Positions 8,259 to 47,401 of a stretch of DNA of 64,000 bases are shown here, one piece after another. The stretch covers positions 62,001 to 126,000 of the forward strand of contig QFXI01000009.1 in NCBI GenBank assembly GCA_003402315.1, written 5' to 3'. Positions within the stretch are counted from its first letter, which is position 1. Each line of letters opens with the position of its first letter. The translations under genes and the position numbers were made by a program. The notes beneath the pieces are model-generated. The model had not been told where the DNA came from and did not search any database. It saw nothing but the letters and a program-made list of their open reading frames with translations. This stretch comes from Candidatus Nitrotoga sp. LAW. GTDB taxonomy: Bacteria > Pseudomonadota > Gammaproteobacteria > Burkholderiales > Gallionellaceae.

Positions 8259-8975
8259 TTATTTCTGGCGACGGCGACGCTGACGTATTAGCAGCGCTTG
8301 GCCCAGCAATCCAGCACTCAATAGCGCCAGCATTCCCGGCTCCGGAATAGTGTTTCCGCTGCTGCTCTGGCCACTTGTGCCGCTAGAACTACTGGTGCTT
8401 GTCACAATTTTCAGGCTGCCCTCACCGTTAGCACCGGTGCGCTGCATCCGAAGAATCGAGTCACTGTCAATACTTGCGAGTGACCATGGATTGGGATCGG
8501 TAACCGTGAGAATCAGCGTCGCGATATCGGGTACCACATTGGTAAAATCCGTAGCCACACCTGAATTGTAGATTCCGCCATTAATGCCATTGTCAGCTGT
8601 GAACGCAATCTCAAATATAGTATTACCTGGCGTAATATTGTTATCTACGTTAAGACCCACCGTCCAACCTGTAATAGCAGTGTTGTTTCCATCCTTAAAA
8701 CTTAATACAGAAGCTGCCGCGATATTAGTAGTAACATTAAAAACAATCCCTGTAATCGCGCCATTCCAACTGCTCGAGGTATTGTTGAACGTAAGCCTTA
8801 GTTGATTCGATCCTAAATCATCGTCATATGTAACGATGCCGCCCTCCACTCCACTGACGAAGGTTTGGGAAATGAGGGTTGCGTTGGCAACGCCGGAGCC
8901 AGCCAATGCCAAGGTGGCCGCCACGAGGGAAAGACGCAGGGCTTTTCCGCAAACCATTTTTATTTTTGTCTTCAT
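8259..8975 (-). CDS. PEP-CTERM sorting domain protein
   Basis: Secreted or surface protein of 238 residues. The signal peptide spans about residues 1-33 (LSLVAATLALAGSGVANA). The middle is a Ser/Thr/Asn-rich beta-type domain with no family I recognise, and a Ser-rich linker (STSSSSGTSGQSSSGN) precedes the PEP-CTERM tail: IPEPGMLALLSAGLLGQALL followed by IRQRRRRQK. Such tails are processed by exosortase (EpsH/XrtA) and go with exopolysaccharide production; no exosortase lies in the window. An AGGAGA site sits eight bases before the ATG. Confidence 0.85.
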   Translation of the reverse strand: MKTKIKMVCGKALRLSLVAATLALAGSGVANATLISQTFVSGVEGGIVTYDDDLGSNQLRLTFNNTSSSWNGAITGIVFNVTTNIAAASVLSFKDGNNTAITGWTVGLNVDNNITPGNTIFEIAFTADNGINGGIYNSGVATDFTNVVPDIATLILTVTDPNPWSLASIDSDSILRMQRTGANGEGSLKIVTSTSSSSGTSGQSSSGNTIPEPGMLALLSAGLLGQALLIRQRRRRQK

Positions 8976-9226: not shown

Positions 9227-10319
9227 GGCACGAATTATCCATGAACCTTGCTGAGTTATTGATGAGTCTCATTGCGCATGAAGAAAGAAGACGCAAGGAA
9301 ATAAACAAGGGGGGCGCAAGCAAGTTATCCGCATGCACCGGAAGGGGATGTTGGAGATGCAAATCGTCGAACACAGCGGTCTTAGTTGGTGCGCGGTGAA
9401 TGCTGGGATCAAACGCCATTCAGGGGCAGGCGCTTGCGCACTCAAACCTGAAGCGCGGGGCAAGAAGCAAGGCAGCGGTCGAGCGTTGAGCGAGGCACAA
9501 GAAGCGACCGTCAGGCAGATCATCTGCGACAAGCGACCGGAACAATTGAAGATGGCATTTGCATTGTGGAATCGTGCTGCGGTCGTACAACTGATTGGGC
9601 GCGAATGCGGGATCAGCCTTTCTGTGCGCGGCGTAGGGAACTACCTCAAGCACTGGGGCTTCACCCCGCAAAGCCGATCAAGAAGGCGTATGAACAACGG
9701 CCTGAAGCCGTGCAGGCATGGTTGGGTAAGGACTATCCGGAGATTGAGCAGCGCACCAAGGCAGAGGGTGCCAAGATTCATTGGGGCGACGAAACGATGG
9801 TCGTGCACACTGATGTGCGCGGTCGAAGTTACGCGCCAATTGGCAAGACGCCAGTGACCTTTGCGGTCGGCGGAACACGCCAGAAGCTATCGATGATTGG
9901 CTACCATCACCAACCAAGGCAAGACGCGCTGAATGATCATTGATAAGGCGTTCAACTCGGACAAGCTAATCGAGTTTCTGGAAGCTCTGACCAAAGATGC
10001 GGGGAGGAAAGTGTTCTGATCCTCGATAACCTGCGAGTGCCTCACAGCAAGCCGGTCAAGAAATGGGCGGACGAACACAAGGAAAAAATTGAGCTGTTCT
10101 ATTTGACCAGCTACAGCCCCGAGCTGAATCCAGAAGAACGGCTGAATGCCGACTTGAAGCATGCCATCTCGACCAAGGTTCCGGCGCGCACGAAGGCCAA
10201 ACTGAAGGCCGCAGCAACCAAACACATTCAGGCGCTGGAAAAATCACCTGAATGCATCAAAAAATACTTCCAGGATTCACGCATAAAATATGCTTCGTGA
10301 TTCACGGATAAAACGGGCC
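9227..10319 (+). mobile_element. Degenerate IS630-family insertion sequence
   Basis: About 1.09 kb bounded by imperfect terminal inverted repeats: 9227-9245 (GGCACGAATTATCCATGAA) and the complement of 10301-10319 (GGCCCGTTTTATCCGTGAA), 15 of 19 matching by eye. Size, DDE transposase content and single-ORF layout fit IS630. No clear TA target duplication was seen. The transposase is broken in several places, so this copy is dead unless supplied in trans. Confidence 0.8.
9278..10300 (+). pseudogene. IS630-family transposase, multiply frameshifted
   Basis: The DDE transposase can be reassembled only across three reading frames. The N-terminus MKKEDARK (9278) runs into a stop and a small deletion before the frame carrying RKQVIRMHRKGM resumes near 9325. 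About 9671 one A is missing (CGCAAAGCC where four A are expected). Near 9899 an extra G shifts the frame back. TGG is changed to TGA at 9930-9932, and near 10016 one C is missing. The segments still read IHWGDETMVVHTDVRGRSY, IIDKAFNSDKLIEFLEAL and SYSPELNPEERLNADLKHA, i.e. the DDE core of IS630 transposases. At least five lesions make this an old inactive copy. Confidence 0.85.
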
Positions 10320-10677: not shown

Positions 10678-12540
10678 CTATTTATTAACCGTTACTGTCT
10701 TACTGGTTATGTTATTCGCAGCATCATACGCTTGCACAGTTGCACTATGCGCACCCTTGGCTATGTTGCGGGTATTCCAGTTGTAACTCAGAGAGTTTCC
10801 ATAAGCGGTGGCGACTTGCTTGCCGTCTATACTCAGGACGATTTTAGCGACACTCTGGTCATCAGTGGCCGTTACTTTAATAGCCTGCTTATTGGAGACT
10901 GTCATGCCATCAACCAAGTTGAAACTGCTAATTACAGGTGCAACAGTGTCACTGCCAATGGTTACCGAAACGGTGGGTGAAACGCCAATGTTGCCTGCCG
11001 CGTCATAGGCATAGGCAACAAGGGTGTAAGCACCGTTTGCGAGTGCTGAGGTATCCCAGGAAAAAGCAAAGGGCGCATTGTCGTCAGTAGCAAATTTTTG
11101 ACCGTTAACATACAGCTCGACACGGCTTACTCCTATATTGTCGGAATATTTTACATCGACCGGAACACTACCGGATACCTTGCTGCCGACCGGTGAGGTG
11201 ATGAGAATATCTGGCGCCTGGGTATCCAGGCTAATAGCTGTTTTAATGATTGATCGAGCGGCTGTCACGGCTTTGGCTGCATCAATCCGGCCCGCGCCAT
11301 AGTAAATATCGTAGCCAGCTGCACCCAAATCAAGTGCGGTTGATTTGAGAATCTGGTCAATATCAGCAGGACTAATGTTATTGTTGGCCGAGATCATCAG
11401 CGCGGCTGTCGCTGCCACAATAGGACTAGCAAAAGAAGTGCCCCAATTACTGGAATAGCCACCGCCCATGGAAGGAGCGTAAATGCTTACACCGGGAGCA
11501 GCAAGGTCAACATAATTACCATAACTCGAAAAACTGGCGCGCTGATCGCTGCTATCGGTGGCAGCCACGCTCAGCATGGAATCGTTTGCAGCAATATCTA
11601 CAAGTCCGCTGCTGTTACCTGCCGCGACCACTACAACACCGCCTTTGCTGCGCATATATTGCGCGGCAGACTGAATAGTGGCACTGCCAGAGAGATTATC
11701 AAAGCTGCAATTGACAACCTTGGCACCGTGATCTGCGGCCCAATTGATGCCCTGCGCCACGATGCTCCAATATGTCATACCTTCGGGCGAACCGATGCGC
11801 ACCGGCATAATTTTCGCGCCCCAGGCAACACCTGCGCTGCCTGTGCTATTGTTAGCCGCCATCGCCGCCGTGCCAGCCACCTTGGTACCATGTCCAGTGA
11901 CATCACTCGTATTGGAATTGTTATCGTAAAAGTTCCAACCTGACACTATATTAGGAGCCAGTTCAGGGTGGGTGGCATCAATGCCGGAATCCAGAATGGC
12001 AATAATCACACCACTACCGTTAGCACTATCCCAAGCTGTGGGTGCTTGAATTTTTGGCAGTGCCCAGCTACTACTATAAGATGGATCGGTCACGGATGCT
12101 GCATGGGTAACTGCCATATCCAACTCAACGTATTTTAATCTGTGGTCTTTCTTTAATTCGCGCATGACCTCCACTTCATCAGCATCTTCCGGCAGTTCGA
12201 CTACATGGGCATTGAGTTTTTTGAGGTGGATTCTGGATTTGCCGTTGTGGGGCTTCAATGCATTCTCAAATTCACCAACGGCTAAACCAGCACGTGGCGC
12301 AATCAGCAAACGGCCTTTTGCCCAACCTACAAAGGCTTGAGTGCGAGCGGGTGTGGCATTTTGTACAATCCCCCCCTCCCCGTCCTGGACCGAGACGGAA
12401 GGCGCAGCATGACTTACACTGGCACTTCCTGCCAAAATGGCAGCCAGGAGAAGCGAACGTGCGAAACTGAGCTTATCGCCCAATTGACCGCAATGGCTGT
12501 TGTCAGAAAATGGAACTGAAAATTGATGTTGGCGTGGCAT
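10678..12540 (-). CDS. Secreted subtilisin-like serine protease (S8) with Ig-like domains
   Basis: Exported 620-residue protease. Signal peptide near residues 24-47 (SLLLAAILAGSASVSHAAPS); an inhibitor-like propeptide region follows (FVGWAKGRLLIAPRAGL to LKYVELDMAV). The S8 catalytic triad is visible: Asp184 in AILDSGIDATHPE, His217 in TGHGTKVAGT, oxyanion Asn309 in AAGNS and Ser369 in GTSFASP. From about residue 445 two Ig-like domains follow (ITSPVGSKVSGSVPVDVKYS and a second starting near ISSFNLVDGM), each ending in a YDAAGN or YDAANN motif. The ATG at 12540 has AAGGAG seven bases upstream. Its leader carries a GEMM-like riboswitch, so expression is probably controlled by c-di-GMP. Substrate unknown; surface adhesin or matrix protein processing is plausible. 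Confidence 0.9.
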   Translation of the reverse strand: MPRQHQFSVPFSDNSHCGQLGDKLSFARSLLLAAILAGSASVSHAAPSVSVQDGEGGIVQNATPARTQAFVGWAKGRLLIAPRAGLAVGEFENALKPHNGKSRIHLKKLNAHVVELPEDADEVEVMRELKKDHRLKYVELDMAVTHAASVTDPSYSSSWALPKIQAPTAWDSANGSGVIIAILDSGIDATHPELAPNIVSGWNFYDNNSNTSDVTGHGTKVAGTAAMAANNSTGSAGVAWGAKIMPVRIGSPEGMTYWSIVAQGINWAADHGAKVVNCSFDNLSGSATIQSAAQYMRSKGGVVVVAAGNSSGLVDIAANDSMLSVAATDSSDQRASFSSYGNYVDLAAPGVSIYAPSMGGGYSSNWGTSFASPIVAATAALMISANNNISPADIDQILKSTALDLGAAGYDIYYGAGRIDAAKAVTAARSIIKTAISLDTQAPDILITSPVGSKVSGSVPVDVKYSDNIGVSRVELYVNGQKFATDDNAPFAFSWDTSALANGAYTLVAYAYDAAGNIGVSPTVSVTIGSDTVAPVISSFNLVDGMTVSNKQAIKVTATDDQSVAKIVLSIDGKQVATAYGNSLSYNWNTRNIAKGAHSATVQAYDAANNITSKTVTVNK

Positions 12541-12541
12541 G

Positions 12542-12611
12542 TCAGGCTCCTTAAATTGGGTTAGCAGTCTGCTGATAAAGCAAATGAACACACCAAGGAC
12601 TTAAAGCCTGA
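12542..12611 (-). promoter_or_regulatory. Candidate riboswitch expression platform (anti-Shine-Dalgarno)
   Basis: The ribosome site region reads AAGGAGCCTGA on the minus strand (complement of 12542-12552). Upstream in the same leader, the complement of 12595-12611 reads TCAGGC, six bulged bases, then TCCTT, which can pair over 11 positions with that site. The TCAGGCT segment also lies just 3' of the aptamer and can alternatively pair with AGCTGA (complement of 12689-12694) 5' of the aptamer as a P1-like helix. That would free the ribosome site when ligand is bound (an ON switch). The pairing is visible; the switching direction is inference. Confidence 0.45.
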
Positions 12612-12695
12612 GTATTCTGGTAACTCCGCTATCTTTAATTCCAAGACCGGAAGCTTTGCGTCCCCACCTCGCGATGGGTTTGCCTTTTTCAGCTA
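12612..12695 (-). ncRNA. Cyclic-di-GMP class I (GEMM) riboswitch aptamer
   Basis: The leader of the subtilase gene matches the GEMM-I core on the minus strand. In order: GGCAAACC; a stem CCCATC/GGTGGG closed by a GCGA (GNRA) tetraloop; GGGACGCAAAGC; TTCCGG; a variable loop; and TAGCGGAGTTACC. These are the conserved blocks of the class I c-di-GMP aptamer, in the correct order and spacing, with the tetraloop docked against its expected receptor strand. It is about 70 nt from the start codon of the protease. I base this on remembered consensus, not on a covariance search. Confidence 0.85.
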
Positions 12696-33114: not shown

Positions 33115-35397
33115 ATGAAAGTCCCTGTGATCACTAACCTCAACAAATCATTCTTACTGTTCGCAGCGCTTTGTTTAAATTTTTCGTCTCTTTCATGGGC
33201 CGATCAGGTAGATGCACCACTTCTTTTGCCAAAGACAGAAGCTACAATAATTCCCAGTCGTCAATCAATATTAACGATGAAGGATATTGGCGCTTCCCGT
33301 CCAATCGAATTGAGGGGCGTGAACAGTAATGCCTATCTTTCTTTGGGCGTGCGGCTGGACGAAGTCGTCACTAAGGCTCAGCTACGCCTAAACTACACGC
33401 TATCCCCCGCACTGCTACCAAATATCTCTCATCTCAAGGTATACCTAAACGATGAAGTATTGGCCACGTTGCCAGTGACCAAAGAAAATCCAGCTGGCCC
33501 ACAAAAACTTGACGTTGAGCTTGATCCCCGTTTCTTTACAGACTTTAACAAAATACACCTGCAATTCATCGGCCATTACACCAACGATTGCGAATTTCCT
33601 CTGCACTCCAGCTTGTGGGCCAACATTAGCAACACGAGCACGCTGGAAATGAATTTGCAATCAATCGCTCTACGCAACGATCTTGCCCTACTACCAGCAC
33701 CCTTCTTCGATCAACGGGACAACCGTTTACTTACCCTGCCTTTCGTGTTTGCCACCAAGCCATCCCTGAATTCCCTGCGGGCAGCGGGCAGTCTTGCCTC
33801 TTGGTTTGGCACTTTGGCGAGCTATCGCGGCGCCCGCTTTCCGGCCTATCTGAATCGTCTGCCAGAGCGTTATGGCGTGGTTTTTGCGACCAATGACGAA
33901 CGGCCAGAATTCCTTGCTAAATATCCCCAAGTGGACGCACCAACCATCTCTTTAATACAACACCCGGAAAATCCTACAGGTAAGCTACTCCTCATCCTTG
34001 GCCGTAATGCTGCCGACCTACAGCTAGCCGCAGACGCCTTGGCTCTGGGCAAGGCTGTTATGACGGGTACTTCAATTGCCGTTAAAAAACTGGAATATCC
34101 ACCGCGCCGTATCGCCTATGATGCACCCAACTGGCTGCAATCAGGCCGTCCCATACCATTGGGTCAACTCGTCAATAGCCCCGCCGACCTACAGCGCCAA
34201 GGCCAGCCTCTCGAACCAATTCTCATCAACGCCCGCTTGCCAGCTGATCTGTTTACCTGGGAAGTAAAAGGAATACCGATTGACCTCAAATACCGTTACA
34301 CGCCACCGGCAGAACAAGGCGATGCCAATCTGAGAATTGAAATAAACGACCAATTTATAGAAGCAATACCGTTGCTATCCAGCACAGGAGCCCGAGAAAA
34401 GAACCACCTGGTACTACCTCTTCTGGATGATGGTTCCTTGCGGGAGCAAAGCGGCGTGGTGATCCCCGCTTTCCATCTGGGCAGCAATAACCAGTTACAA
34501 TTTTCATTTTCCATTCCGCCCAGTGACAATGGCCGCTGCAAATCTTCACCACAAGAAAACATGCGCGCGGCAATCGATCCAGATTCAACTTTAGATCTGA
34601 GCCATTTATACCACTACGCAGCAATGCCAAACCTGGCATTTTTCGCTAATAGCGGATTTCCGTTCACCAAATACGCCGATCTCGCCGAGACCGCGATCGT
34701 CATCCCCGACCAGCCTAACACCTTTGACATGGAAGCCATGTTCGCCTTACTGGGCCATATGGGCCGTTCTACCGGTGTTCCCGCCCTACACTTCAAGCTC
34801 ATCCAGACAAAATCCATACAATCTGCAAAAGATTCAGACTTGTTGATAATTGCCAGTGGTGCCAACAAGGATCTTCTCGCTAGCTGGGGCAAATCCCTTC
34901 CAGCCCTGCTGGAAGAAGGAAGCCGCACCTTTACGTCTTTGGGCAAAGCCATGGATATGGCTTATGATTGGTTCGGAATGAATGAGAACAAAATATTCAA
35001 ACCTGGAGAAAGCAGCATATTGCTTGGATCCGGCCCCTTGGCCGCCATCATCGGCTTTGAATCACCGCTCAGTCCATCACGTAGTGTCGTGGCCCTTACT
35101 GCCAATACCCCAACAGCTTTGACCTCAGCTCTGGATGCCCTAAGCGATGGCGGAAAGGTTCAATACATCCGCGGTGATATCGCTTTAATGCGAGGAGGGA
35201 ATGTCGAAAGTTACCGCGTTAACGATGTGTATTACGTTGGCGAATTGCCTTGGTGGCGCTGGATATGGTTCCACCTGCACCACCATCCTCTATTCCTGAC
35301 TGCTATCGGCATCGCAATTGGTCTTTTTGTTGCCCTGCTTGCGTTTAGTGCCCTACGTAGCCTGGCTGCCAGACGGCTCGGCCAACACAAGAAATAA
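33115..35397 (+). CDS. bcsB: Cellulose synthase periplasmic subunit BcsB
   Basis: Periplasmic, membrane-anchored partner of BcsA that receives the nascent glucan. 760 residues: signal peptide (FLLFAALCLNFSSLSWA), repeated carbohydrate-binding and flavodoxin-like domains (LRLNYTLSPALLPNISHLKV with HYTNDCEFPLHSSLWANIS; later VIPAFHLGSNNQLQFSFSIP), and a C-terminal anchor helix (PLFLTAIGIAIGLFVALLAF). It begins the bcsB-bcsZ-bcsC transcript. No Shine-Dalgarno is evident at the ATG. It is odd that bcsB is not in the same unit as bcsA, which runs toward it from the opposite strand. Confidence 0.94.
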   Translation: MKVPVITNLNKSFLLFAALCLNFSSLSWADQVDAPLLLPKTEATIIPSRQSILTMKDIGASRPIELRGVNSNAYLSLGVRLDEVVTKAQLRLNYTLSPALLPNISHLKVYLNDEVLATLPVTKENPAGPQKLDVELDPRFFTDFNKIHLQFIGHYTNDCEFPLHSSLWANISNTSTLEMNLQSIALRNDLALLPAPFFDQRDNRLLTLPFVFATKPSLNSLRAAGSLASWFGTLASYRGARFPAYLNRLPERYGVVFATNDERPEFLAKYPQVDAPTISLIQHPENPTGKLLLILGRNAADLQLAADALALGKAVMTGTSIAVKKLEYPPRRIAYDAPNWLQSGRPIPLGQLVNSPADLQRQGQPLEPILINARLPADLFTWEVKGIPIDLKYRYTPPAEQGDANLRIEINDQFIEAIPLLSSTGAREKNHLVLPLLDDGSLREQSGVVIPAFHLGSNNQLQFSFSIPPSDNGRCKSSPQENMRAAIDPDSTLDLSHLYHYAAMPNLAFFANSGFPFTKYADLAETAIVIPDQPNTFDMEAMFALLGHMGRSTGVPALHFKLIQTKSIQSAKDSDLLIIASGANKDLLASWGKSLPALLEEGSRTFTSLGKAMDMAYDWFGMNENKIFKPGESSILLGSGPLAAIIGFESPLSPSRSVVALTANTPTALTSALDALSDGGKVQYIRGDIALMRGGNVESYRVNDVYYVGELPWWRWIWFHLHHHPLFLTAIGIAIGLFVALLAFSALRSLAARRLGQHKK

Positions 35398-35407
35398 GCA
35401 CCTGGAA

Positions 35408-36619
35408 ATGACCTATTTATTCGTGGGTATCAGATGTAAAGTTGGCATTTTGCTATATCGTGGACGCCAAATTCTCGCTGCGCTCTGCGTCTGCTTAGGA
35501 ACCGTTCAGGCAGCAACAACCGAACCCACTTGCCAGGCAGATTGGTCCGCTTGGCAAAGCTTCAAGTCAGGGTTCATCAACGAGGGCGGACGGGTAGTGG
35601 ATGGCAGTACCCCCCGCAAACAGACCGTATCAGAAGGACAGGCCTATGCGCTGTTTTTCGCGTTGGTGGCCAACGACCGCAAAACCTTCGACAAAATCCT
35701 GCAATGGACCGAAAATAATCTGGCAAATGGCGATTTGACCAGCCATCTGCCAGCCTGGTTATGGGGTCGCAGAGACGATGGCAGCTGGGGAATATTGGAC
35801 AATAATCCAGCATCGGATGCCGATCTATGGATAGTCTATGCGTTAGGTGAAGCGGGTCGGCTTTGGGGCGAGCGCCGCTTCGTTGCGCTTTCATCGCTGC
35901 TGGCCAACCGTATCTTGCGCGAAGAAACGGCGGATCTGCCGGGCCTAGGCCCTACCTTACTACCTGCACCGCGCGGATTCCAGACCGGGAAAAAAACCTG
36001 GCGCCTCAACCCCAGTTATCTACCCATGCAGCTCATGGATTGGCTAAGCAGCCGAAGTCCTGATTCCACCTGGAAACAAGTTTCGGAATCTTCCCGACGA
36101 ATCCTCTTGGAATCCGCCCCACAGGGATTCTCTCCTGACTGGACGGTCTATGAGGACAGCAAAGGATTCCGAATGGATCGTACAGGGAAAGAAAAAGGCG
36201 CAGGTGGCTATAATGCCATCCGGGTTTATCTGTGGGCTGGTATGCTTGCGCCTGACGTTCCTGTCCGGCCACAGCTTCTTACTGCTTTTGCCCCCATGGC
36301 CAGCTTTACCGCACGCCACGGCTACCCGCCAGAGTCTATCAACATAACGACAGGTGAAGCCAATGGCCCAGGGCCATCAGGATTTTCCGCCGCACTGCTA
36401 CCTTTCCTGGCCGCCCGTGAAGACAGCACTACCCTGCAGGAACAACGCGATCGTTTAACGGCTCGCCCACCGCGTCTGGATGCCTACTATGAACAGGCAC
36501 TTTCCCTTTTTGCCCATGGCTGGATGGAAGGACGTTACCAATTCACGAAAAATGGCAGCCTGCTGCCCTCTTGGCAAAAATCATGCAACTCCGCCTCATC
36601 CCGCTTACCTTCGCACTAA
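35408..36619 (+). CDS. bcsZ: Endo-1,4-beta-glucanase BcsZ (GH8)
   Basis: Periplasmic cellulase of glycoside hydrolase family 8 that trims glucan during export. About 403 residues; signal segment ILAALCVCLGTVQA; catalytic acid Glu in TVSEGQAYALFFALVA, aspartates in NNPASDADLWIVYALGEAG, and the substrate-cleft GGYNAIRVYLWAGM. The frame is open from 35318 inside bcsB, but the ATG at 35408, ten bases after the bcsB stop, is the likely start. Its 3' end overlaps bcsC by about 37 bases. Confidence 0.94.
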   Translation: MTYLFVGIRCKVGILLYRGRQILAALCVCLGTVQAATTEPTCQADWSAWQSFKSGFINEGGRVVDGSTPRKQTVSEGQAYALFFALVANDRKTFDKILQWTENNLANGDLTSHLPAWLWGRRDDGSWGILDNNPASDADLWIVYALGEAGRLWGERRFVALSSLLANRILREETADLPGLGPTLLPAPRGFQTGKKTWRLNPSYLPMQLMDWLSSRSPDSTWKQVSESSRRILLESAPQGFSPDWTVYEDSKGFRMDRTGKEKGAGGYNAIRVYLWAGMLAPDVPVRPQLLTAFAPMASFTARHGYPPESINITTGEANGPGPSGFSAALLPFLAAREDSTTLQEQRDRLTARPPRLDAYYEQALSLFAHGWMEGRYQFTKNGSLLPSWQKSCNSASSRLPSH

Positions 36620-39600
36620 CCCTGGCCGGGTTGTTGAGTGCGCCAACTCTTGCCAGCCCCAAAGATAACGACGCTGGCGCCGACTTGCTGCGCAGCGCCC
36701 GCATGTGGGAAGCCAAGGATCGACCAGATTTAGCGCGTGTCATGCTGGAAAAATTACTGACGATCGAATCCAATCCAGAAGCACTGTTTATGCTGGGTAG
36801 TATTGAACTCCGGTCAGGAAATATAAAACTCGCCAGTGAATATTTGCGTCGCCTGGAACAGAATTATCCCCGACACCCCAACACTCTAGGTCTACGCAGC
36901 CTGTATCGGGTTAACACCACTGAAAAACAGACTCTGGCAAATGCGCGCCTGATGGCTCGAGCAGGCAACACCAAAGAAGCCGCCAAAATCATGCGCCGGT
37001 TATTTTCGGAAGCCCCTCCCCCGGGTGAAGTCGGACTCGAGTATTACCAACTCGTGAGTAACACTGCCAAAGATCAGCAAACGGCAAAATCTGCCCTTGA
37101 CAAGCTCTACCGGGAAACAGGAGAAGCGCGCTACCGCCTTGCCTGGCTTAAACTACAAAGCAATCAGGGCAATAAACAAGAAATCTTGCAAGGTTATGAG
37201 TCCTTGGCCGCCGCGCCTGACGTTAACCGGCAAAAATTACGCGAAAGCTGGTGGGCTGCCATAAACCGCCTCGCGGCAGCACCAGCAACTCTACCTTGGG
37301 TTCGCCGCTATCTGAAAGAATTCCCGAATGACCAGAATGCCATCGAATACTTGGCGGAGCTACAACAATTGCATGAAAAAGCGTTGCGTATCGCCAACGA
37401 CCCTGCGGTACGTGCCCGTCAAACTGGGATCGTATTCCTGGAACAAGGACAACTGGAAAATGCCCAGCGTGAGCTACAAAGCTCTCTAGCCAAACGCCCC
37501 AATGACCCCAAAGTGCTGGGTAACATCGGCTTGCTTCGCTTGCGCCAAGGGCGTCACGAAGAAGCTAAGGGCTGGTTCCAGCGTGCGGTAAGGGCTGAAC
37601 CGGGCAGCAACAAATGGCGTGGTTTGATCCGTACTGCAAGTTTCTGGAGTCAAATGAAACAGGCCGATGAGCTACTCGAAGCGGGCAAGCTGGCTGAGGC
37701 GCAAAAATTTGCACGGCAAGCCCTGAGTATCGAACCAAATAATGCAGATGGGCTTGCCCTGCTAGGCAATATTCTAGCCCGAGGCCAAAATTTGGCCGGT
37801 GCCGAACCACTCTACCGTGAGGCACTCAGACGAGATGCGGGCAATGCTTCGGCTATGCGCGGCCTAATTGAACTGCTCTCCCGTAACGGACGGCGCGATG
37901 AAGCCCAAACATTGATCGCCGAATTCCGTCAGAACAATCCCAAGGAAGCCAACCGGTTCAACGAAAGCCAAGCTAGCCTGCTACGGGATGAAGCCGAAAC
38001 ATTCATCAGCGCTCATAGCCCCAGCCACGCCCTTCTGGCATTAGAAACCGCTGTACAACTCGCCCCTCGTGATGCCTGGATTCGTTATGACCTGGCAAAT
38101 CTTTATGGGAGTCTGGGCTTACAGACACTCAGCCGCCGTGTAATGGCAGAAGGTGCTGCGCTGACTCCGAACGACTCAAGCATGAACTATGCCTATGCTT
38201 TAGTACTGACCGCACAAGAGCGGGAAATAGAAGCTCTGCAACGCTTGGCCCGTATTCCCCTATCGACACGTTCCAACGCCATGAATGAACTGGAAAAGCG
38301 CACTTGGATCAAGTTACGCATCCGCCAAGCCACAAAACTCCAAGCTGACGGCAGGAGAGACGAAGCGATCCGAATGCTGCTCCTTGCCGAACAACATGCC
38401 GCTGACAACAACCCGGCTGCGGTCAAACAAGTGTCAGAAGGCTGGTTTAGCCTTGAGCAACCAGCCCGCGGCCTCTCCCTGATGAAACGACATCTAACTG
38501 ACGTGAAGCCAGCAACGGCGGACAGTCAGCTTTATTACGCCTCGTTGCTCAATCGGGCTAAACAGGATGACACACTGGGCATTTTTTTGCCGGAACTACA
38601 ACAACGTCCCGACTGGAATGACGAGCAACGGGAAACTATGCTGGCAATTGAAACTGACCTTGCTGCCCGGCAAATCGAGCATCTGCTGCAACGTGGCGAA
38701 ACAGCTCAAGCCCGGACTCTTGCTGCCCGGGCGGCTGTTTCAGGGCGGGCAGGCGATATCTCGACCCTGAAAGCCCAGGTTCGCCTGCTGCTGGAGGCTA
38801 ACGATTCAAAAGCCGCCCTGCTAATCTTACGGGCGATTCTGGATAAACATCCGGACGATTTGGAATCACGTCTAAATCTCGCACAAGCTCACGCCCAGGC
38901 AGGAGAAAAGCAGGCTGCCCAGGAGGTAATCGATCAATTGCTACCCCGTTTGCGTGAGAATGATGTGGATACCAGACTGTCCGTTACCCGGCTAGAAGCT
39001 CGCCTTGGAAATATGGATCGGGCCAGAAAGATAATTACGAACCTCCTCGCCAGCAACCCCAACAATCCAGATGTATTGATCCAGGCAGGCCGTATTGAAC
39101 ACAGTGATCGACGATACCATACTGCCCTGGCCTATTTTCGCCAAGCACTAGCCTTGGAGGGACGTGTTCAAAGCGTGGCAACGACCGCTGAATCAGTACC
39201 TCTCCTCGACCTGGATCCCAAGCACCCAATAACCCAACCCAATTACGCCTCAAGGTATCCCAATGTAGTTAAGGGTATAGCTACCGCTGACAAACAAAAA
39301 TCTGCAGCCGATACACCTCTCGTGCCGCCCATACCAGAGCTAGGAAAAACAGATTTAATTCGTCGCCCCACCAGAGCGGAGGAGGAAATTACCCGTATTG
39401 AAGCCAGGCGAGATCCCCGTATTGAAGTAGGGTTCGAAAAACTCAGTAGAAACTCTTCAAACGGCACATCCACCTATAACGGAACAGAGATTCCAGTAGT
39501 CGGGTGGTGGCCGGTGGGTTATGACGGGCACGGTTTTGTCCACGTGGATCAGGTCAGTGTCAATGCAGGTGAACTTACCCAAAGCGATGCACCTCTCTTC

Positions 39601-40536
39601 GGCAAGCTGGGTGTAAGGCCTTCTTCTCTCCCCCCTCCATTTGCGCAGAAAGTAGATGGTACCTCGGTAGGTGTAGGCTATGAAGGTGATGAATTACGCT
39701 GGGATTTAGGCATGGTCGGTATCGGTTTTCCAGTCCAGAATATGGTCGGGGGCATTCGCAAAGGCTGGGAAGCAAACAAAGTGGACTACGCCCTTGAAAT
39801 TTTCCGTCGCCCGCAAACTAACAGCCTACTTTCCTATGCCGGCACGCGCGACCCCGCTACAGGTGAAATCTGGGGAGGTATAGCCTATACCGGGATTGGC
39901 GGTCGGGTCGCCCACACTTTTGGTCAGTTTAATACCTTCGCCAGCGCCGAATATGGCCTATTGCGGGGCAAGAATGTACTCGATAACAATCGTCTCGCCC
40001 TGCGTACCGGCATAGATAAAGACGTGCTACACCGGGAAAACATGTGGGTCAATCTGGGATTCACCCTGACCTACTGGCGCTACAAGGAAAACGAATCTTT
40101 CTACACTTTTGGTCATGGCGGTTACTACAGTCCGCAAAGCTACACTTCAGTGAACTTGCCGATAGAATGGGCAGGCCGCAGCGGAAAACTTTCTTATTTG
40201 GCGCGAGGTTCAACTTCCTTCGCTTGGACCAATGAGAAACGTATGCCTTATTACCCAACAAACAGCGCGTTGCAAAGCGATGCTGTCACTAGTGGCAATA
40301 ACGTCGATCTTGGATTTTACCCTGGGGGGGACGGTGGTGGAAAAGGCTATTCCCTGCGGCTGGCAACCGAGTACCAGGTTACGCCTCACCTGGCCATTGG
40401 TGGATACCACAACATAGACCGTACAGCTTTCTATACCCCAAACCTAACTTTCATCTACCTGCGCTACCTGTTTAAGGCTCACTCAGAACCAGTGCGCTTC
40501 CCACCGATAACGGCTAGACCTTACTCCCGCTTCTGA
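36583..40536 (+). CDS. bcsC: Cellulose synthase outer-membrane TPR/porin protein BcsC
   Basis: Outer-membrane exporter of cellulose, 1317 residues. Signal peptide (LTFALTLAGLLSAPTLA), about 15-19 tetratricopeptide repeats over residues 30-880 (e.g. NPKVLGNIGLLRLRQGRHEE-like units), a linker, then the BCSC_C beta-barrel of about 330 residues rich in GxY strands and ending FIYLRYLFKAHSEPVRFPP. ATG 36583 is used here; a TTG at 36571 is an alternative, and both overlap the end of bcsZ. The stop codon abuts the bcsG stop on the other strand with no spacer. Confidence 0.94.
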   Translation: MQLRLIPLTFALTLAGLLSAPTLASPKDNDAGADLLRSARMWEAKDRPDLARVMLEKLLTIESNPEALFMLGSIELRSGNIKLASEYLRRLEQNYPRHPNTLGLRSLYRVNTTEKQTLANARLMARAGNTKEAAKIMRRLFSEAPPPGEVGLEYYQLVSNTAKDQQTAKSALDKLYRETGEARYRLAWLKLQSNQGNKQEILQGYESLAAAPDVNRQKLRESWWAAINRLAAAPATLPWVRRYLKEFPNDQNAIEYLAELQQLHEKALRIANDPAVRARQTGIVFLEQGQLENAQRELQSSLAKRPNDPKVLGNIGLLRLRQGRHEEAKGWFQRAVRAEPGSNKWRGLIRTASFWSQMKQADELLEAGKLAEAQKFARQALSIEPNNADGLALLGNILARGQNLAGAEPLYREALRRDAGNASAMRGLIELLSRNGRRDEAQTLIAEFRQNNPKEANRFNESQASLLRDEAETFISAHSPSHALLALETAVQLAPRDAWIRYDLANLYGSLGLQTLSRRVMAEGAALTPNDSSMNYAYALVLTAQEREIEALQRLARIPLSTRSNAMNELEKRTWIKLRIRQATKLQADGRRDEAIRMLLLAEQHAADNNPAAVKQVSEGWFSLEQPARGLSLMKRHLTDVKPATADSQLYYASLLNRAKQDDTLGIFLPELQQRPDWNDEQRETMLAIETDLAARQIEHLLQRGETAQARTLAARAAVSGRAGDISTLKAQVRLLLEANDSKAALLILRAILDKHPDDLESRLNLAQAHAQAGEKQAAQEVIDQLLPRLRENDVDTRLSVTRLEARLGNMDRARKIITNLLASNPNNPDVLIQAGRIEHSDRRYHTALAYFRQALALEGRVQSVATTAESVPLLDLDPKHPITQPNYASRYPNVVKGIATADKQKSAADTPLVPPIPELGKTDLIRRPTRAEEEITRIEARRDPRIEVGFEKLSRNSSNGTSTYNGTEIPVVGWWPVGYDGHGFVHVDQVSVNAGELTQSDAPLFGKLGVRPSSLPPPFAQKVDGTSVGVGYEGDELRWDLGMVGIGFPVQNMVGGIRKGWEANKVDYALEIFRRPQTNSLLSYAGTRDPATGEIWGGIAYTGIGGRVAHTFGQFNTFASAEYGLLRGKNVLDNNRLALRTGIDKDVLHRENMWVNLGFTLTYWRYKENESFYTFGHGGYYSPQSYTSVNLPIEWAGRSGKLSYLARGSTSFAWTNEKRMPYYPTNSALQSDAVTSGNNVDLGFYPGGDGGGKGYSLRLATEYQVTPHLAIGGYHNIDRTAFYTPNLTFIYLRYLFKAHSEPVRFPPITARPYSRF

Positions 40537-42105
40537 TCACAACCCAGGCTGATAATCGATCCATGTGCCCTCAGAGCGCATCAGGTAACCGTTGTCACGT
40601 CCAATGACAACGATATCCTCGTTTTCGCTCACGAAAGGCGTCCCCGGAAGATTTTGTACCCGTTCCGCCAGAGGTTTGCCGCCAGTTCCGGCAAAGGGAC
40701 TATCCGCGATAAAACCGGCAAGAAGTGTGCTGATCGCAAAGTAACTCACTGACTTATCCACCTGCAAGGGTAGATGTGGCGTATCCCCGGACTTACCCTT
40801 GAAGCCTACCAGTTTGATGGCGGCGGGCACCAGTGTAATCTTGGGATTGGGAATTTCACGCATACCAGATATCTGCACCTTATCTCCCCGCAAAGCGGCA
40901 CCGTGCTCTGGTACTAAAATCACCACCACCGGCCTTCCTTTATCCTCTAGGAAAGTAATAAAACGATCAAAATCTGACATCAATTTATCCAAACGCGGTT
41001 TGAAGGTTTCCAAACTAGAACGTGATTTAACCCCAGAAATACGGTTTCCATCATGCAAAGCAATCGTATTGTAGTACAAGGCTCGAGGCCGAACTGATGG
41101 CGGCTGGCGTGCCCACCACTCCGAGAGTAATGGGAAATCTTCATAAATAGGGGTATTGTCAAAACTGTGCATCATTACGGGTGCGAAGCGATTGTCATCC
41201 AGCTTTACCCCAAGACCAGATGACTTTTGTACCATATCTGCGAACTGGTCGAAGTGTCCATCGTGGTTAAGCAGACCCCGTACTTCGAAGCCGGCAGCCT
41301 CAAAATTGCGGAAAAGGTTGCATTGGGACGCATCCACTTCATATAGCTTGCGGTGTGGAAGCTGACCGCAATTACTATGAAACAGGCGTAGAACACCGGG
41401 ACCGCTGTAACTAGCGGCCGTATTAAAACGACGGAACACGACGTCAAAACGGTTTAATAAAGTCGAGTTGCTTTCGCCGACATAATCCATGTCATCCCAT
41501 GAAAGGGAACAGACGTGCAGAAACACCACATCAAAGGGCGCGGTAGAGTCTGCAATAGATGGGAAGCCCACCCGCTTGCCCTGTTCGGCGGCATAAAAGG
41601 CTTCCAATTGGGCCGTCGGCTCCTGCTTAATTTGCGAAATTGCGACGTTTCCATCTACTAGCGCCGGGCGGGAAGAAACAATCTGGGCGACATTGGCGCC
41701 CTGCAGGCTCGCAATAGGCGTGCTCAAAATACCAAGAAAAGCCAAAGTGGCAAAACGTACACGGCGACGCAACAACAGGTAAACCACTAGCAAAAGTCCC
41801 AGCGCAGCAAGGATCCAAAGATTTACAAAGCGACCCAAAAGTTCCAAAAGATAATCATTGCCGAACCCTGCCAAAGCGTCCTTCTGGGAAAGAATGCGCG
41901 AAATCGGCGGCAGCCATGAATCATGATAAAGCAGTGTTAGGCCGACTGGCATGGCCAACACCGTGCGTATCAGACGATACCGGGTAGACGCCAACGGCAA
42001 CACAAGTGTAATGGCAAAGGCCAGGTTAGGTAGCCAGTGAAAGCCAATAAACCCGCTATAAAACAGGCCCAGCTTGGCAATAAAATAAACACTCCAGTAG
42101 CCCAT
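40537..42105 (-). CDS. bcsG: Cellulose phosphoethanolamine transferase BcsG
   Basis: Inner-membrane enzyme with an alkaline-phosphatase-superfamily periplasmic domain that moves phosphoethanolamine from phosphatidylethanolamine to cellulose. 522 residues: four or five N-terminal membrane helices (to about residue 135), then the catalytic domain with VFLHVCSLSWDD (zinc-site Cys), the nucleophile Ser in AASYSGPGVLRLFHS and the metal pair in LVPEHGAALRGD. These match the known BcsG zinc-site layout. It lies 40 bases after bcsA and is the last gene of its transcript. Confidence 0.93.
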   Translation of the reverse strand: MGYWSVYFIAKLGLFYSGFIGFHWLPNLAFAITLVLPLASTRYRLIRTVLAMPVGLTLLYHDSWLPPISRILSQKDALAGFGNDYLLELLGRFVNLWILAALGLLLVVYLLLRRRVRFATLAFLGILSTPIASLQGANVAQIVSSRPALVDGNVAISQIKQEPTAQLEAFYAAEQGKRVGFPSIADSTAPFDVVFLHVCSLSWDDMDYVGESNSTLLNRFDVVFRRFNTAASYSGPGVLRLFHSNCGQLPHRKLYEVDASQCNLFRNFEAAGFEVRGLLNHDGHFDQFADMVQKSSGLGVKLDDNRFAPVMMHSFDNTPIYEDFPLLSEWWARQPPSVRPRALYYNTIALHDGNRISGVKSRSSLETFKPRLDKLMSDFDRFITFLEDKGRPVVVILVPEHGAALRGDKVQISGMREIPNPKITLVPAAIKLVGFKGKSGDTPHLPLQVDKSVSYFAISTLLAGFIADSPFAGTGGKPLAERVQNLPGTPFVSENEDIVVIGRDNGYLMRSEGTWIDYQPGL

Positions 42106-42145
42106 TAGTACTATTAGCCCCCGAAACTTATACTATCTGCAACTG

Positions 42146-44653
42146 TCAAATCGTTGGTCTCCCAAGCCAACCCCGCAGCGATTGATGCTGCCTTGCCAAG
42201 CCCTTACCCAGATTACGCCACAAACTGCGGTAACCCTTGAATCCAAATATGGCAATTTCTTTCAAACTTTGCAGCGGGCGATCCACGCCCTGCTCGTCCG
42301 ACCAATTGCTCCACGCATCTGGCCGGGCAAATGTACACTGAACAAAATTTGCTTCTTGCTCTATACTCAGATTATCGAACTGAATTCCAAGTTTGTGACC
42401 ATGGCTCGCAATTACTCGTGCAGGAAAAGCAAATTCCACCTCATCGTGCCAAAGTGAAACCCAAACCCGCTCTTTCACCGGCAATTTCAATTCCTGGTCG
42501 AGCATCAAGCCAAGGCCAGTCATGGAATAATCTTCAGTGCGACACATCTTGGTGCTCCCGTCCTTAAAATGTAATGCAACCAACAAATTAGCGGATACCC
42601 GATGGGATACCCGCACTTGTTTGGCTTCAGTAGCGACGCCAATAGCTGCACCTAATATCAGAAGGTTATAAATTGTCCAACTCAGGTTGAGCAACACTGT
42701 TCCCGTCTCAAAAGTATTCCAGAAGAAAAGCCGTCCTAATCCGATAGACAACCCGACAATATTAAGTGTAGCGAGCACGATATACGGTTTGGAAATGGCC
42801 CAGTCAAAGAAAGAATTCTCAATCAGCCCCCCTTTAGCCGTGACATTGAATTTTCCGGCTTTCGGATTGAAGACGGCGACAGCGGTGGGCAAAATGATGT
42901 ACCAAGCCAAAACTGATTCATACACCTCAGCCCAAAACGAATGCCGGTGCGGCCCTTGAATGTGTGCATTGGCCAAATTAGCCTGCAGCATGTGCGGCAG
43001 TACGTAGAGGGCAAGCATGGCAGCGGCGGCACTGATTATGTGGACTTCGAAATAAAGATAGGTCAGCGGGGCGGTCAGAAAAATAAGGCGCGGAATACCA
43101 TAGAAAAAATGCAGCATTGCGTTGCTGTAACAGATGCGCTGAAAGAAGCTCAACCCCTTGCCCTGGAACGGATTGTCGATTCTAAAAATCTGCGCCATGC
43201 CCCGTGCCCAGCGGATGCGCTGGCCGATGTGGCTAGAAAGGCTTTCTGTGGCCAGCCCTGCTGCCAAGGGAATATTAATATAAGCAGTGGTATAGCCAAG
43301 CCGATGGAGTTTCAGGGCAGTATGGGCATCTTCGGTTACCGTTTCTACGGCAACCCCTCCCACCTCTTCAAGTGGCCCCCGACGCAACACGGCACAAGAA
43401 CCACAAAAAAAGGTGGCATTCCAAAAATCATTACCATCCTGGACCAGGCCATAGAACAAGGCGCCCTCGTTGGGAACCCGGCGAAAAGTGCCAAGGTTGC
43501 GCTCGAAGGTGTCAGGGGAAAAAAAGTGATGTGGCGTCTGCAACATAGCGCAACGCTTGTCCTTGAAAAACCAGCCCATTGTCAACTGCAAAAAGGAGCT
43601 GGTAGGCAAGTGGTCACAATCAAAAATGGCCACATACTCGCCGCGGGTCAATTTTAGTGCATGGTTTAAATTGCCCGCCTTGGCATGGGCGTTGTCAGGT
43701 CGAGTGATGTAGTCCACCCCAGCTTCCTTGGCAAAGCGACGGAATTCATCCCGCCGCCCATCGTCCAGGATATAAATATTGATCTTGTCGCTTGGCCAAT
43801 CCACCCCCTTAGCGGCAAGAACCGTTGGTTCCAGCACCTTGAGCGGTTCGTTATAGGTAGGAATGAAAATATCGACAGTGGGCCACAGGGATGTGTCCGC
43901 TGGCAAGCTCAAGGTTTGCCGCTTGAGAGGCCAAGCATTCTGAACATAACCAAGCAATAGAACCAGCCAGGTGTATGTCTCCGCAAGAAGTAAACCAATA
44001 GCAAGAAAGGTCTCCCAGCCGGCATCCAGCGGGATGGTTTGAGTCAATCGCCACCAGCCGTAGCGGCATGAAGCCAGCACTGAAAGAGTGATTAATATCA
44101 GGGCCGGCAGGTTACCGGGAATACGCCGTACAAACAGCGCAGCTCCCCACAAGCAGACAATAAATAAAAGCTGCCCAAACCAGGTAAAGGGAGTAGTGAC
44201 CACCAGCCAGAAAAAAAATATTGAGCACAAAACCAGCAACCAAAGTAGCCAAGGCTTTTGGAAAAAAGAAGTTTCCAGCCAGCCCTCCAAGCGGTGACCG
44301 ACCGATTCATAATTCACTGACGGCAAAAAAGAAAGTAACCGCTGCCAAAACCAGCGCAAGACCCGAACGCCTGCCAGTACAATTCGCACTGAGATTGAAA
44401 ATAGCAGGCCAATAGTTCGAACCAACAAGACAAGGAACGTATTTCTGGAGGAAGTTTTAATGCGTGTGGCACGATCTGGAGGATAAATAAATAAAGACAG
44501 CACCCACTGCCAAACGCTACGCCTATCAACCACCCCCAGTTCTTCAGCCAGCCAGCCCAGCGGATCAGGGCGTGGCCTAACTTCCACACGGGCTGATGCA
44601 GCCAGCCCATCTGCCTTTGGTAACGAGAACGGTCGCTTCAGCAAATGGCGCAT
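42146..44653 (-). CDS. bcsA: Cellulose synthase catalytic subunit BcsA
   Basis: GT2 processive UDP-glucose beta-1,4-glucosyltransferase of the inner membrane. 835 residues with an N-terminal extension of about 145 residues as in enterobacterial BcsA, then membrane helices around the GT domain. Catalytic residues: DDGRRDEF, the DCDH metal motif, TED in VTEDAHTALK, and QRIRWARG (QxxRW). After the last helices a PilZ domain (about residues 680-790) has the c-di-GMP motif RVSHRVSAN and DYSMTGLGLML. It is therefore c-di-GMP activated. The ATG overlaps the bcsQ stop by one base. Confidence 0.97.
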   Translation of the reverse strand: MRHLLKRPFSLPKADGLAASARVEVRPRPDPLGWLAEELGVVDRRSVWQWVLSLFIYPPDRATRIKTSSRNTFLVLLVRTIGLLFSISVRIVLAGVRVLRWFWQRLLSFLPSVNYESVGHRLEGWLETSFFQKPWLLWLLVLCSIFFFWLVVTTPFTWFGQLLFIVCLWGAALFVRRIPGNLPALILITLSVLASCRYGWWRLTQTIPLDAGWETFLAIGLLLAETYTWLVLLLGYVQNAWPLKRQTLSLPADTSLWPTVDIFIPTYNEPLKVLEPTVLAAKGVDWPSDKINIYILDDGRRDEFRRFAKEAGVDYITRPDNAHAKAGNLNHALKLTRGEYVAIFDCDHLPTSSFLQLTMGWFFKDKRCAMLQTPHHFFSPDTFERNLGTFRRVPNEGALFYGLVQDGNDFWNATFFCGSCAVLRRGPLEEVGGVAVETVTEDAHTALKLHRLGYTTAYINIPLAAGLATESLSSHIGQRIRWARGMAQIFRIDNPFQGKGLSFFQRICYSNAMLHFFYGIPRLIFLTAPLTYLYFEVHIISAAAAMLALYVLPHMLQANLANAHIQGPHRHSFWAEVYESVLAWYIILPTAVAVFNPKAGKFNVTAKGGLIENSFFDWAISKPYIVLATLNIVGLSIGLGRLFFWNTFETGTVLLNLSWTIYNLLILGAAIGVATEAKQVRVSHRVSANLLVALHFKDGSTKMCRTEDYSMTGLGLMLDQELKLPVKERVWVSLWHDEVEFAFPARVIASHGHKLGIQFDNLSIEQEANFVQCTFARPDAWSNWSDEQGVDRPLQSLKEIAIFGFKGYRSLWRNLGKGLARQHQSLRGWLGRPTI

Positions 44654-45426
44654 CAGACTTGTGCCCTTCCGTCAAGACTGCTTGCAGGCCCAGCAAGCAA
44701 CCAATTAAGCAAACCGTTTAAATCATGGGCGACTAAGGAATCTGGGCTCAAGCTCTGCAAGTTCGCATAATTTGCGACTGCACGTGGAACCGCTTCATCC
44801 CGATGTATAGGATAAGGTGACAACCGCATCTGTAGTGCCGACCGGAATTGTGCCAATAAATCACTTTGAAGCGCCCGTGTGCTATCCAGACCGTTCATCA
44901 CATAAATGGGCTGACGCCCTGGAGCACACCGGGCCAACGCAGCTTCCACCGCTGGCACCAGAGCCAGGGAGCGAGTATCTGGCGCCAGCACAGCCAACAC
45001 CAAGTCTGCTGCAACCATGGCTTGGCGTGCATAGAGAGATGGCAGGCGGGGTGTATCCATAATTAGGAAAGCCCCTGGCGGATAATCAATCTGGGCAATA
45101 TATTTTTTGAGCCACTCGGATTCTGTACGCAAGTGTTGCTCAAAAGTGGCCAGACTAGCTTCATTAGCCCGACCAAACGGCAAACAAGCCACTTCGTTTG
45201 AATTGATAAGCGCGCTCTTACCGAACTCTTTCTTTGTTAGAAAATCCGGCAGCAATCCGCCTAAACTAATTTCATCACTACCGAGCAGGGTGGATAATAG
45301 ATTTTGGGGATCAAAATCTAGAGCTAGAACGGCAATTTTGCGCTGGGCAAGCAAAGTGGCTAGACTGGCCGTCAAGGTCGACCGCCCCACCCCGCCTGCG
45401 GCTGAAACAATGGCAATTTTGAACAT
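44653..45426 (-). CDS. bcsQ: Cellulose biosynthesis ATPase BcsQ (MinD/ParA-like)
   Basis: SIMIBI-class ATPase of the BcsQ/YhjQ family, part of the cytoplasmic BcsRQE regulatory complex. 257 residues: MFKIAIVSAAGGVGRSTLTA at the start, the switch LALDFDPQNLL and LIMDTPRLPSLYARQAMVA. The deviant Walker A is degenerate: the signature Lys is Ala and the P-loop Lys is Arg (AAGGVGRST); enterobacterial BcsQ also lacks a canonical lysine there. It begins three bases after bcsF with AAGGGA upstream. No bcsR was found. Confidence 0.9.
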   Translation of the reverse strand: MFKIAIVSAAGGVGRSTLTASLATLLAQRKIAVLALDFDPQNLLSTLLGSDEISLGGLLPDFLTKKEFGKSALINSNEVACLPFGRANEASLATFEQHLRTESEWLKKYIAQIDYPPGAFLIMDTPRLPSLYARQAMVAADLVLAVLAPDTRSLALVPAVEAALARCAPGRQPIYVMNGLDSTRALQSDLLAQFRSALQMRLSPYPIHRDEAVPRAVANYANLQSLSPDSLVAHDLNGLLNWLLAGPASSLDGRAQV

Positions 45427-45429
45427 GGG

Positions 45430-45600
45430 TCAGTCCCTTGCGCCAAGCACCCGTTCGGTGTGACCGGGTTTATAGGGCACTATGCAGCGCAAATGCCGAC
45501 GCAAAAATAGACGTCGTAACAACCGCTTCAGCACATAATAAATAAGTGCAGCTAGCGCTACACCTAAAAGAAGGGATAACAGGAAATTATCAAGCATCAT
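45430..45600 (-). CDS. bcsF: Small membrane protein BcsF
   Basis: A 56-residue protein encoded between bcsE and bcsQ. It has one N-terminal membrane helix (LDNFLLSLLLGVALAALIYY), a Lys/Arg-rich juxtamembrane stretch (KRLLRRLFLRRHLR) and a C-terminal YKPGHTERVL. This mirrors BcsF of enterobacteria in size, topology and in the RYVKPAGTLRRTE-like tail. It recruits BcsE and BcsG to the synthase complex. Its ATG overlaps the bcsE stop by one base, and bcsQ starts three bases after its stop, which supports a real coupled gene. Confidence 0.82.
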   Translation of the reverse strand: MMLDNFLLSLLLGVALAALIYYVLKRLLRRLFLRRHLRCIVPYKPGHTERVLGARD

Positions 45601-47393: not shown

Positions 47394-47401
47394 ATTTATT
47401 T

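Follow-up and report, generated by a model that had tools for sequence, protein, structure and literature searches.

What does the leader of a subtilase gene of Candidatus Nitrotoga sp. LAW sense, which promoter reads it, and does its signal raise or lower protease production? The window, i.e. the whole stretch of DNA that was analysed, is 64,000 nucleotides long and carries the gene and its leader on the minus strand. A preliminary description of this DNA had proposed a c-di-GMP class I riboswitch in front of a secreted S8 protease, with protease output rising with c-di-GMP.

The protease gene and its aptamer

Three features are needed at the outset:
10678-12540, minus strand: S8 subtilase of 620 aa (Pfam; thermitase alignment)
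12552-12547, minus strand: ribosome site AAGGAG, read directly; base-paired in the aptamer-containing consensus fold
12693-12615, minus strand: c-di-GMP-I (GEMM-I) aptamer, 68.6 bits with RF03167; 70.2 bits with RF01051 at 12694-12616

The gene starts with an ATG at 12540-12538 and, according to Pfam, encodes a Fervidolysin-type prodomain, a Peptidase_S8 domain (PF00082, 179 bits) and two Big_7 Ig stretches. Among solved chains, thermitase matches best; its alignment spans residues 151-425 and covers the DSG, GHGT and GTSFASP segments, which we take to be the catalytic Asp, His and Ser segments. The domain match and this alignment confirm the S8 subtilase of the preliminary description. Its claim of secretion stands in part: the N terminus looks like a signal peptide, as judged by reading, and the protease is presumably exported.

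Orthologs (76-89% identity) are found in six other genomes of the genus, so that 7 of 19 genus genomes carry the protease; in all seven, the short aptamer form lies upstream of it. Among 158 family genomes, no subtilase match outside the genus was found at E <=1e-30: the nine matching genomes all belong to the same genus, and seven of them are the ortholog carriers. Between the protease gene and a PEP-CTERM gene (8259-8975), the region 9333-10300 contains short frames which resemble, by reading, broken transposase pieces.

The blocks of a GEMM-I aptamer can be read directly on the minus strand, in the order that the preliminary description had given: GGCAAACC, a GCGA-capped stem, GGGACGCAAAGC, UUCCGG and UAGCGGAGUUACC, followed by AAGGAG and the start codon. 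The covariance search that it had suggested, with the Rfam GEMM-I model, agrees with its class assignment. When the whole window is scanned with cmscan, the match to RF03167 (c-di-GMP-I-GGC; E 4e-14, gathering cut-off 59) is the sole one above a gathering cut-off. The parent model RF01051 has a gathering cut-off of 35 and exceeds it at one place only in the 2,814,534-base genome, one further place reaching 19.1 bits.

The seven orthologous leaders were aligned (alignment A1, 159 columns, 93% mean identity), and their consensus fold contains the GNRA-capped P2 (loop GCGA or GUGA), P3 and the pocket-adjacent P1. Columns G12, A39 and C76 are invariant in 7/7 leaders. We take them to be the equivalents of pocket bases G20, A47 and C92 in Vc2 numbering. 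The G20 equivalent is called a selectivity factor in the available part of PMC9262584.

The retention of RF03167 by cmscan as the best overlapping match of its clan could indicate an altered variant of the c-di-GMP-I-GGC family, with a ligand perhaps other than c-di-GMP. However, RF01051 gives the higher score in bits, and the window aptamer has an A at the Vc2 A47-equivalent position, after GACGC, where the consensus of the GGC model has a G; it also reads GUUACC instead of GcUGCc. The model consensus suggests that the position after GACGC is the defining base of the GGC variant. This base was compared in 122 GEMM-I loci of the family (the genus matches and the stronger family matches listed, leaving out L002, at 19.1 bits, and the duplicate L003): it is A in 117, C in 1 and unparsed in 4. 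Moreover, RF03167 is retained for 6 of 14 other aptamers, described below, which have GACGCAAAG by search design, so an aptamer given this label need not have the variant base. Filing under c-di-GMP-I-GGC was rejected because of the A, and a change of ligand is very improbable. The aptamer is, judging by its sequence, an ordinary new member of the known c-di-GMP-I (GEMM-I) class on a plausible target, with c-di-GMP as its predicted ligand.

A sigma-28-type motif ahead of the aptamer

A motif which the preliminary description had not noticed lies immediately upstream of the aptamer:
12729-12703, minus strand: sigma-28 (FliA)-type promoter motif, with a -35 box TAAAGTTT at 12729-12722, an 11-base spacer and a -10 box GTCGATTC at 12710-12703

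The pattern TAAAGTTT-N11-GTCGAT is matched exactly at 12729-12705. Compared with TAAAGTTT-N11-GCCGATAA, which we take to be the sigma-28 (FliA) consensus, the window promoter agrees at 14 of 16 bases when T is permitted at the second -10 base. The exact pattern TAAAGTTT-N11-GYCGAT occurs at four sites in the genome: before flgM, before flhDC, in the window leader and inside a yhdP gene. With at most one mismatch there are six sites, the additional ones being located before motA and before a NIT/HAMP-domain gene. When two mismatches are allowed, its sites in the genome (57) do not outnumber those of the reversed control (62), so the informative sites are the near-exact ones.

Both promoter boxes are present in 9/9 aligned Nitrotoga leaders, including two (L027 and L043) that precede another gene, and the DNA further upstream is mostly divergent, apart from a partly conserved T-rich stretch beside the -35 box. 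These leaders have a common ancestry, so the conservation of the promoter is not independent evidence. FliA is encoded in the genome (272 bits) and exceeds the curated cut-off in 14 of the 19 genus genomes. It is found in 9/9 genomes that have the promoter-aptamer cassette vs 5/10 of those that do not (p 0.022, a value that ignores kinship and genome incompleteness).

In L027 and L043, the motif and the aptamer stand before a different short frame that starts with MNRIF. No metalloprotease remnant was found behind this cassette by tblastn (E 1e-3) with the metalloprotease of L007. The latter locus (L007:807-2390, genus genome G103) has a GEMM-I leader before a reprolysin-like metalloprotease, with a sigma-28 score of at most 11.

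The same score was calculated for the 122 family loci, in which the position of the aptamer was taken from covariance-model coordinates. Thirteen loci score 14-15 of 16, the rest score at most 11, and none scores 12 or 13; in resampled upstream DNA, a score of 13 is reached in 0.1% of trials and a score of 12 in 0.9%. The high scorers are 10 Nitrotoga loci, from 9 genomes, and three loci of another genus (L032, L129 and L136), which have one common promoter sequence, with the sigma-28-like box 52 bases before the GEMM-I aptamer. The gene downstream of these three encodes, by reading, a predicted membrane protein. Similar genes elsewhere in the family have a GEMM-I aptamer without a sigma-28-like box.

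The motif might be a chance match or a relic, the leader being read from another promoter. Indeed, a sigma-70-like site (9 of 12) lies upstream on the minus strand at 12883-12855, and three such sites are seen over both strands vs 1.3 expected. However, the sigma-28 match is exact, stands at a fitting distance and is kept while most of the upstream DNA diverges, and the two-peaked distribution of scores in the family argues against chance. We consider this alternative improbable. The sequence thus points to transcription of the leader from a flagellar sigma-28 promoter. The message was probably started by the flagellar sigma factor, in which case the swimming state and the level of c-di-GMP would be read on one gene.

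Genome contigs were also scanned for the exact pattern TAAA-N15-GYCGAT, 5-35 bases ahead of a GEMM-I core. The scan gave 23 loci, of which 8 are of the Nitrotoga type (two from one MAG) and 15 are others. One of the latter, L099, has no Rfam match; it was taken as a chance match and discarded. Each of the other 14 has, where the pattern matched, a score above a c-di-GMP-I cut-off (8 with RF01051, 6 with RF03167). At bases that the pattern leaves free, the fifth base of the -35 box is G in 11/14 loci (p 4e-5) and the base following GYCGAT is A in 13/14 (p 1.6e-7), both compared with a flat 25%; the gap is 24-35 bases in 12/14 (p 4e-4, for a range picked after the data were seen). Without the promoter part, the core pattern has 26 occurrences, spread over 22 of 398 phylum genomes; several of these occurrences are non-aptamers by eye. 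From this count, about one chance match or fewer is expected in the whole scan, a rough estimate which could rise in phyla richer in c-di-GMP-I aptamers. Some of the 14 promoters may be chance matches.

A sigma-28 motif followed by an aptamer is thus seen in unrelated phyla as well, in one case in front of flgM. In the MAG Bin_57_9 (L111:4622-4930, minus strand), this anti-sigma-28 gene has a sigma-28-type motif and then a c-di-GMP-I aptamer ahead of it, an arrangement through which c-di-GMP could directly determine how active sigma-28 is. In a Nitrosomonas MAG (L102:724-2259, minus strand), a sigma-28-like box (TAAAT variant) and a c-di-GMP-I aptamer are followed by a reprolysin-like metalloprotease. 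The downstream genes encode Spherulin4 proteins in Burkholderia and Caballeronia (L100 and L105), a FliL-domain protein (L097), an fn3 protein (L106), an HD-domain protein (L107) and a pilin-like protein (L108). No Pfam family was matched by the downstream proteins of L092, L093, L109, L112 and L114 (L113 was left out).

Sigma-28 promoters that run into c-di-GMP-I aptamers may form a recurrent module in unrelated bacteria, in which one mRNA integrates the flagellar checkpoint and c-di-GMP, with secreted proteases, surface proteins and flgM as targets, often with the logic "motile AND low c-di-GMP"; we regard this proposal as evenly balanced. In the parts of the open-access literature that the searches covered, no precedent for a sigma-28 promoter on a c-di-GMP riboswitch was found, which is not proof of novelty, and the open-access texts on Nitrotoga riboswitches that were retrieved deal with guanidine only. 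Within the reach of these searches, three things are new: the combination with a flagellar promoter, the finding of this combination in other bacteria, and the anti-aptamer design described below.

Competing pairings in the leader and the direction of switching

The direction of switching depends on four further parts of the leader:
12693-12679, minus strand: aptamer 5' strand GCUGAAAAAGGCAAA (A1 columns 3-17), either part of the aptamer or partner of the anti-aptamer block
12619-12617, minus strand: CAG, 3' strand of the canonical P1, pairing with CUG 12692-12690 (RNAalifold consensus, 7/7)
12611-12593, minus strand: masking strand, made of UCAGGCU 12611-12605 and CCUUGG 12598-12593, over the ribosome site
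12584-12571, minus strand: anti-aptamer block UUUGCUUUAUCAGC, with one U/C difference among the seven orthologs

The masking strand pairs with 12554-12542 in 98.9% of 91 cells over the seven leaders, a value equalled by 378 of 500 shuffles. In the RNAalifold consensus fold of these leaders, the ribosome site is masked in the presence of the complete aptamer with its canonical P1. Aptamer folding and masking are thus not in competition. The block 12584-12571 forms 13 pairs with 12693-12679 in 7/7 leaders, one G-U being replaced by G-C in one species; in the anti-aptamer state, 98.6% of 293 cells pair (equalled by 196 of 500 shuffles). As this helix and the masking helix cross, a nested fold can contain only one of them. 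The preliminary description had noticed that one segment can pair with either a P1-like strand or the ribosome site, and UCAGGCU does both; it had missed the third and longer pairing, that of the block with the 5' strand of the aptamer.

In nascent RNA ending at columns 126-143, the anti-aptamer pairing has a probability of 0.81-0.94 in 7/7 leaders. The observed pairing of the GGCAAA strand is attained by shuffled downstream RNA in 0-4 of 200 trials (7 leaders). The energy of the bare anti-aptamer duplex is equalled by 28-93 of 1000 shuffles in six leaders and by 1/1000 in the seventh. When the 20-base segments of the aptamer are ranked, the target of the block comes 2nd to 12th of 55-58, so that 1 to 11 segments pair better. 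Since the leaders are 93% identical, covariation is almost nil: relative to the commonest pair, no both-sided change is seen in the masking helix among the seven leaders, and columns 102-143 (G-U, G-C, A-U), considered as covariation, were dropped because no both-sided change was counted. No terminator-like site is present on the coding strand between the aptamer and the gene, which makes a translational platform likely.

Fold energies, which take no account of the ligand, tertiary contacts or transcription speed, were used to compare the states. For the region that extends from the ribosome site to 13 bases beyond the start codon, the opening cost is 11.2-14.3 kcal/mol when the aptamer is formed and 3.8-7.8 kcal/mol when the anti-aptamer is formed, the latter being the lower in 7/7 leaders. 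AAGGAG has an unpaired fraction of 0.00-0.02 in the aptamer state of six leaders; in the anti-aptamer state the fraction is 0.21-0.36, i.e. the site is mostly paired with other bases. In the window leader, it is alike in both states (0.32 with the anti-aptamer vs 0.36 with the aptamer). When the canonical P1 is forced, the cost of opening the whole site increases in 7/7 leaders and that of opening AAGGAG alone in 5/7.

The preliminary description had deduced that the ligand exposes AAGGAG. Such an ON switch would work if c-di-GMP stabilised an extended P1 (AGCUGA with UCAGGCU), which would remove the masking strand and free the ribosome site. The two segments are complementary and invariant in the seven leaders, and the extended P1 is the leading pairing when the nascent RNA stops at column 92 (0.47-0.66 in 6/7). 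When it is forced, the cost of opening AAGGAG alone falls in 5/7 leaders, which speaks for the ON reading. The whole-site cost, on the contrary, rises in 5/7 and falls in 2/7 only (from 8.6 to 6.8 in the window leader and from 11.0 to 7.9 in M5), and CCUUGG still pairs with the ribosome site in these folds. Moreover, the Rfam alignment and the consensus fold both place P1 at CAG 12619-12617, and the ON model leaves the conserved block 12584-12571 unexplained. The extended P1 was therefore set aside as the main model, on account of the whole-site cost and the conserved block. It is kept as a rival, which we find possible but doubtful.

Provided that the leader adopts the anti-aptamer fold when unbound, an OFF switch results whichever form of P1 is taken, as the whole-site cost in the bound state is higher in 7/7 leaders: 6.8-10.8 with the extended P1 vs 3.8-7.8 with the anti-aptamer, for fragments that differ by a few bases. 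The rise in output expected by the preliminary description is thus not favoured, given these costs and the consensus fold in which the site is masked in the presence of the aptamer.

In full-length leaders without ligand, the masking helix reaches at least 0.97 in 5/7 cases (0.39 in the window leader and 0.50 in that called Loclat), so the switch must be kinetic if it is to operate. In most leaders, the equilibrium folds mask the ribosome site whether or not the aptamer is forced. This would also be expected of a constitutively masked leader or an RNA decoy that has lost its switching. However, the aptamer core, the masking strand, the anti-aptamer block and the ribosome site are kept in seven species in which the proteases differ by up to 24%, and such a loss seems quite improbable. 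The models thus predict a kinetic OFF switch, in which c-di-GMP turns the translation of the subtilase off, rather than an ON switch, some of the fold measures being neutral or in favour of ON.

The proposed sequence of events is as follows. Transcription would start from the sigma-28 promoter just ahead of the first helix of the aptamer. Without c-di-GMP, the nascent block 12584-12571 would pair with the 5' strand of the aptamer and destroy the binding site; this pairing would keep the masking strand off the ribosome site, so that ribosomes could load and the subtilase be translated. If c-di-GMP bound early, the aptamer would be locked and the block could not invade it; the strand 12611-12593 would then pair with the ribosome site and translation would be off. 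The net result would be production of the protease in flagellated cells and at low c-di-GMP. An OFF switch would suit a sigma-28 promoter, as both inputs would favour motile cells.

The explanation that we favour, with reasonable but far from complete confidence, is therefore a canonical c-di-GMP-I riboswitch transcribed from a sigma-28 promoter, in which c-di-GMP turns translation off and the protease is made when the flagellar programme is running and c-di-GMP is low.

Context and comparison with known systems

The genome encodes 19 GGDEF domains above the Pfam cut-off, which makes c-di-GMP synthesis likely. The window also contains a cellulose synthesis cluster (33115-47432), in which BcsB, BcsA and BcsE domains are confirmed, and which may represent a second c-di-GMP-linked output within the window. 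Neighbouring frames in this region look, by reading, like BcsZ, BcsC, BcsG and BcsQ.

As a rule, separate proteins connect c-di-GMP with the flagellar programme. Here, both inputs appear to act on one transcript, which would make the leader a compact gate on a protease of a nitrite oxidiser from a genus for which, to our knowledge, few genetic tools exist. For riboswitch work, the leader provides a small system that is predicted to switch translation and in which the anti-aptamer strand is explicit. That the arrangement is also seen in other phyla, in one case ahead of flgM, suggests that the design is more general.

The closest parallel is the Cdi1_12 riboswitch of C. difficile, in front of the gene of the protease ZmpI/PPEP-1. 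The preliminary description had cited a C. difficile protease as a precedent. The precedent holds for the presence of a class I riboswitch on a protease gene, not for the direction: in the available texts, the protease is negatively regulated by c-di-GMP (PMC4591827, PMC6200980). As predicted here, a class I aptamer controls a secreted protease that is made at low c-di-GMP (PMC4591827, PMC6200980, PMC11477304, as far as these texts were available). ZmpI/PPEP-1 is a zinc metalloprotease and its regulation consists in the repression of transcription, whereas the Nitrotoga leader precedes a subtilase and its platform looks translational. The accessible parts of the same three papers mention no flagellar promoter. 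Since the C. difficile protease is described there as freeing adhesins from the cell surface when c-di-GMP is low (PMC4591827, PMC11477304), the parallel suggests a role of the subtilase in dispersal or surface clearing.

In Bdellovibrio, FliA-type promoters are found on many non-flagellar genes, including proteases, and merRNA, a c-di-GMP riboswitch RNA, is abundant in the motile phase (PMC3627812, from the portions at hand). In contrast with the Nitrotoga leader, merRNA has no FliA mark in Table 2 of that paper and, according to its authors, controls no protein gene.

The Vc2 riboswitch of V. cholerae tfoY is an OFF switch, in which c-di-GMP binding prevents translation (PMC7371385, PMC9262584, in the excerpts available). 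It resembles the predicted Nitrotoga leader in being of class I and in blocking translation when bound. It differs in that a regulator gene lies downstream and in having four promoters, with no mention of sigma-28 in the accessible part of PMC7371385.

Finally, Cd1 of C. difficile is also an OFF switch, in which, according to the accessible part of PMC9262584, the aptamer can be folded alongside the terminator, the two competing with an anti-fold of transient stability. The kinetic logic is that of the model proposed here, the aptamer and an OFF helix standing together against a transient anti-fold, except that the OFF helix of Cd1 is a terminator and that of the Nitrotoga leader a ribosome-site mask. 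Cd1 controls the flagellar genes of an operon that encodes SigD (PMC6200980, in the text available), whereas in Nitrotoga the flagellar sigma motif is placed before the riboswitch itself.
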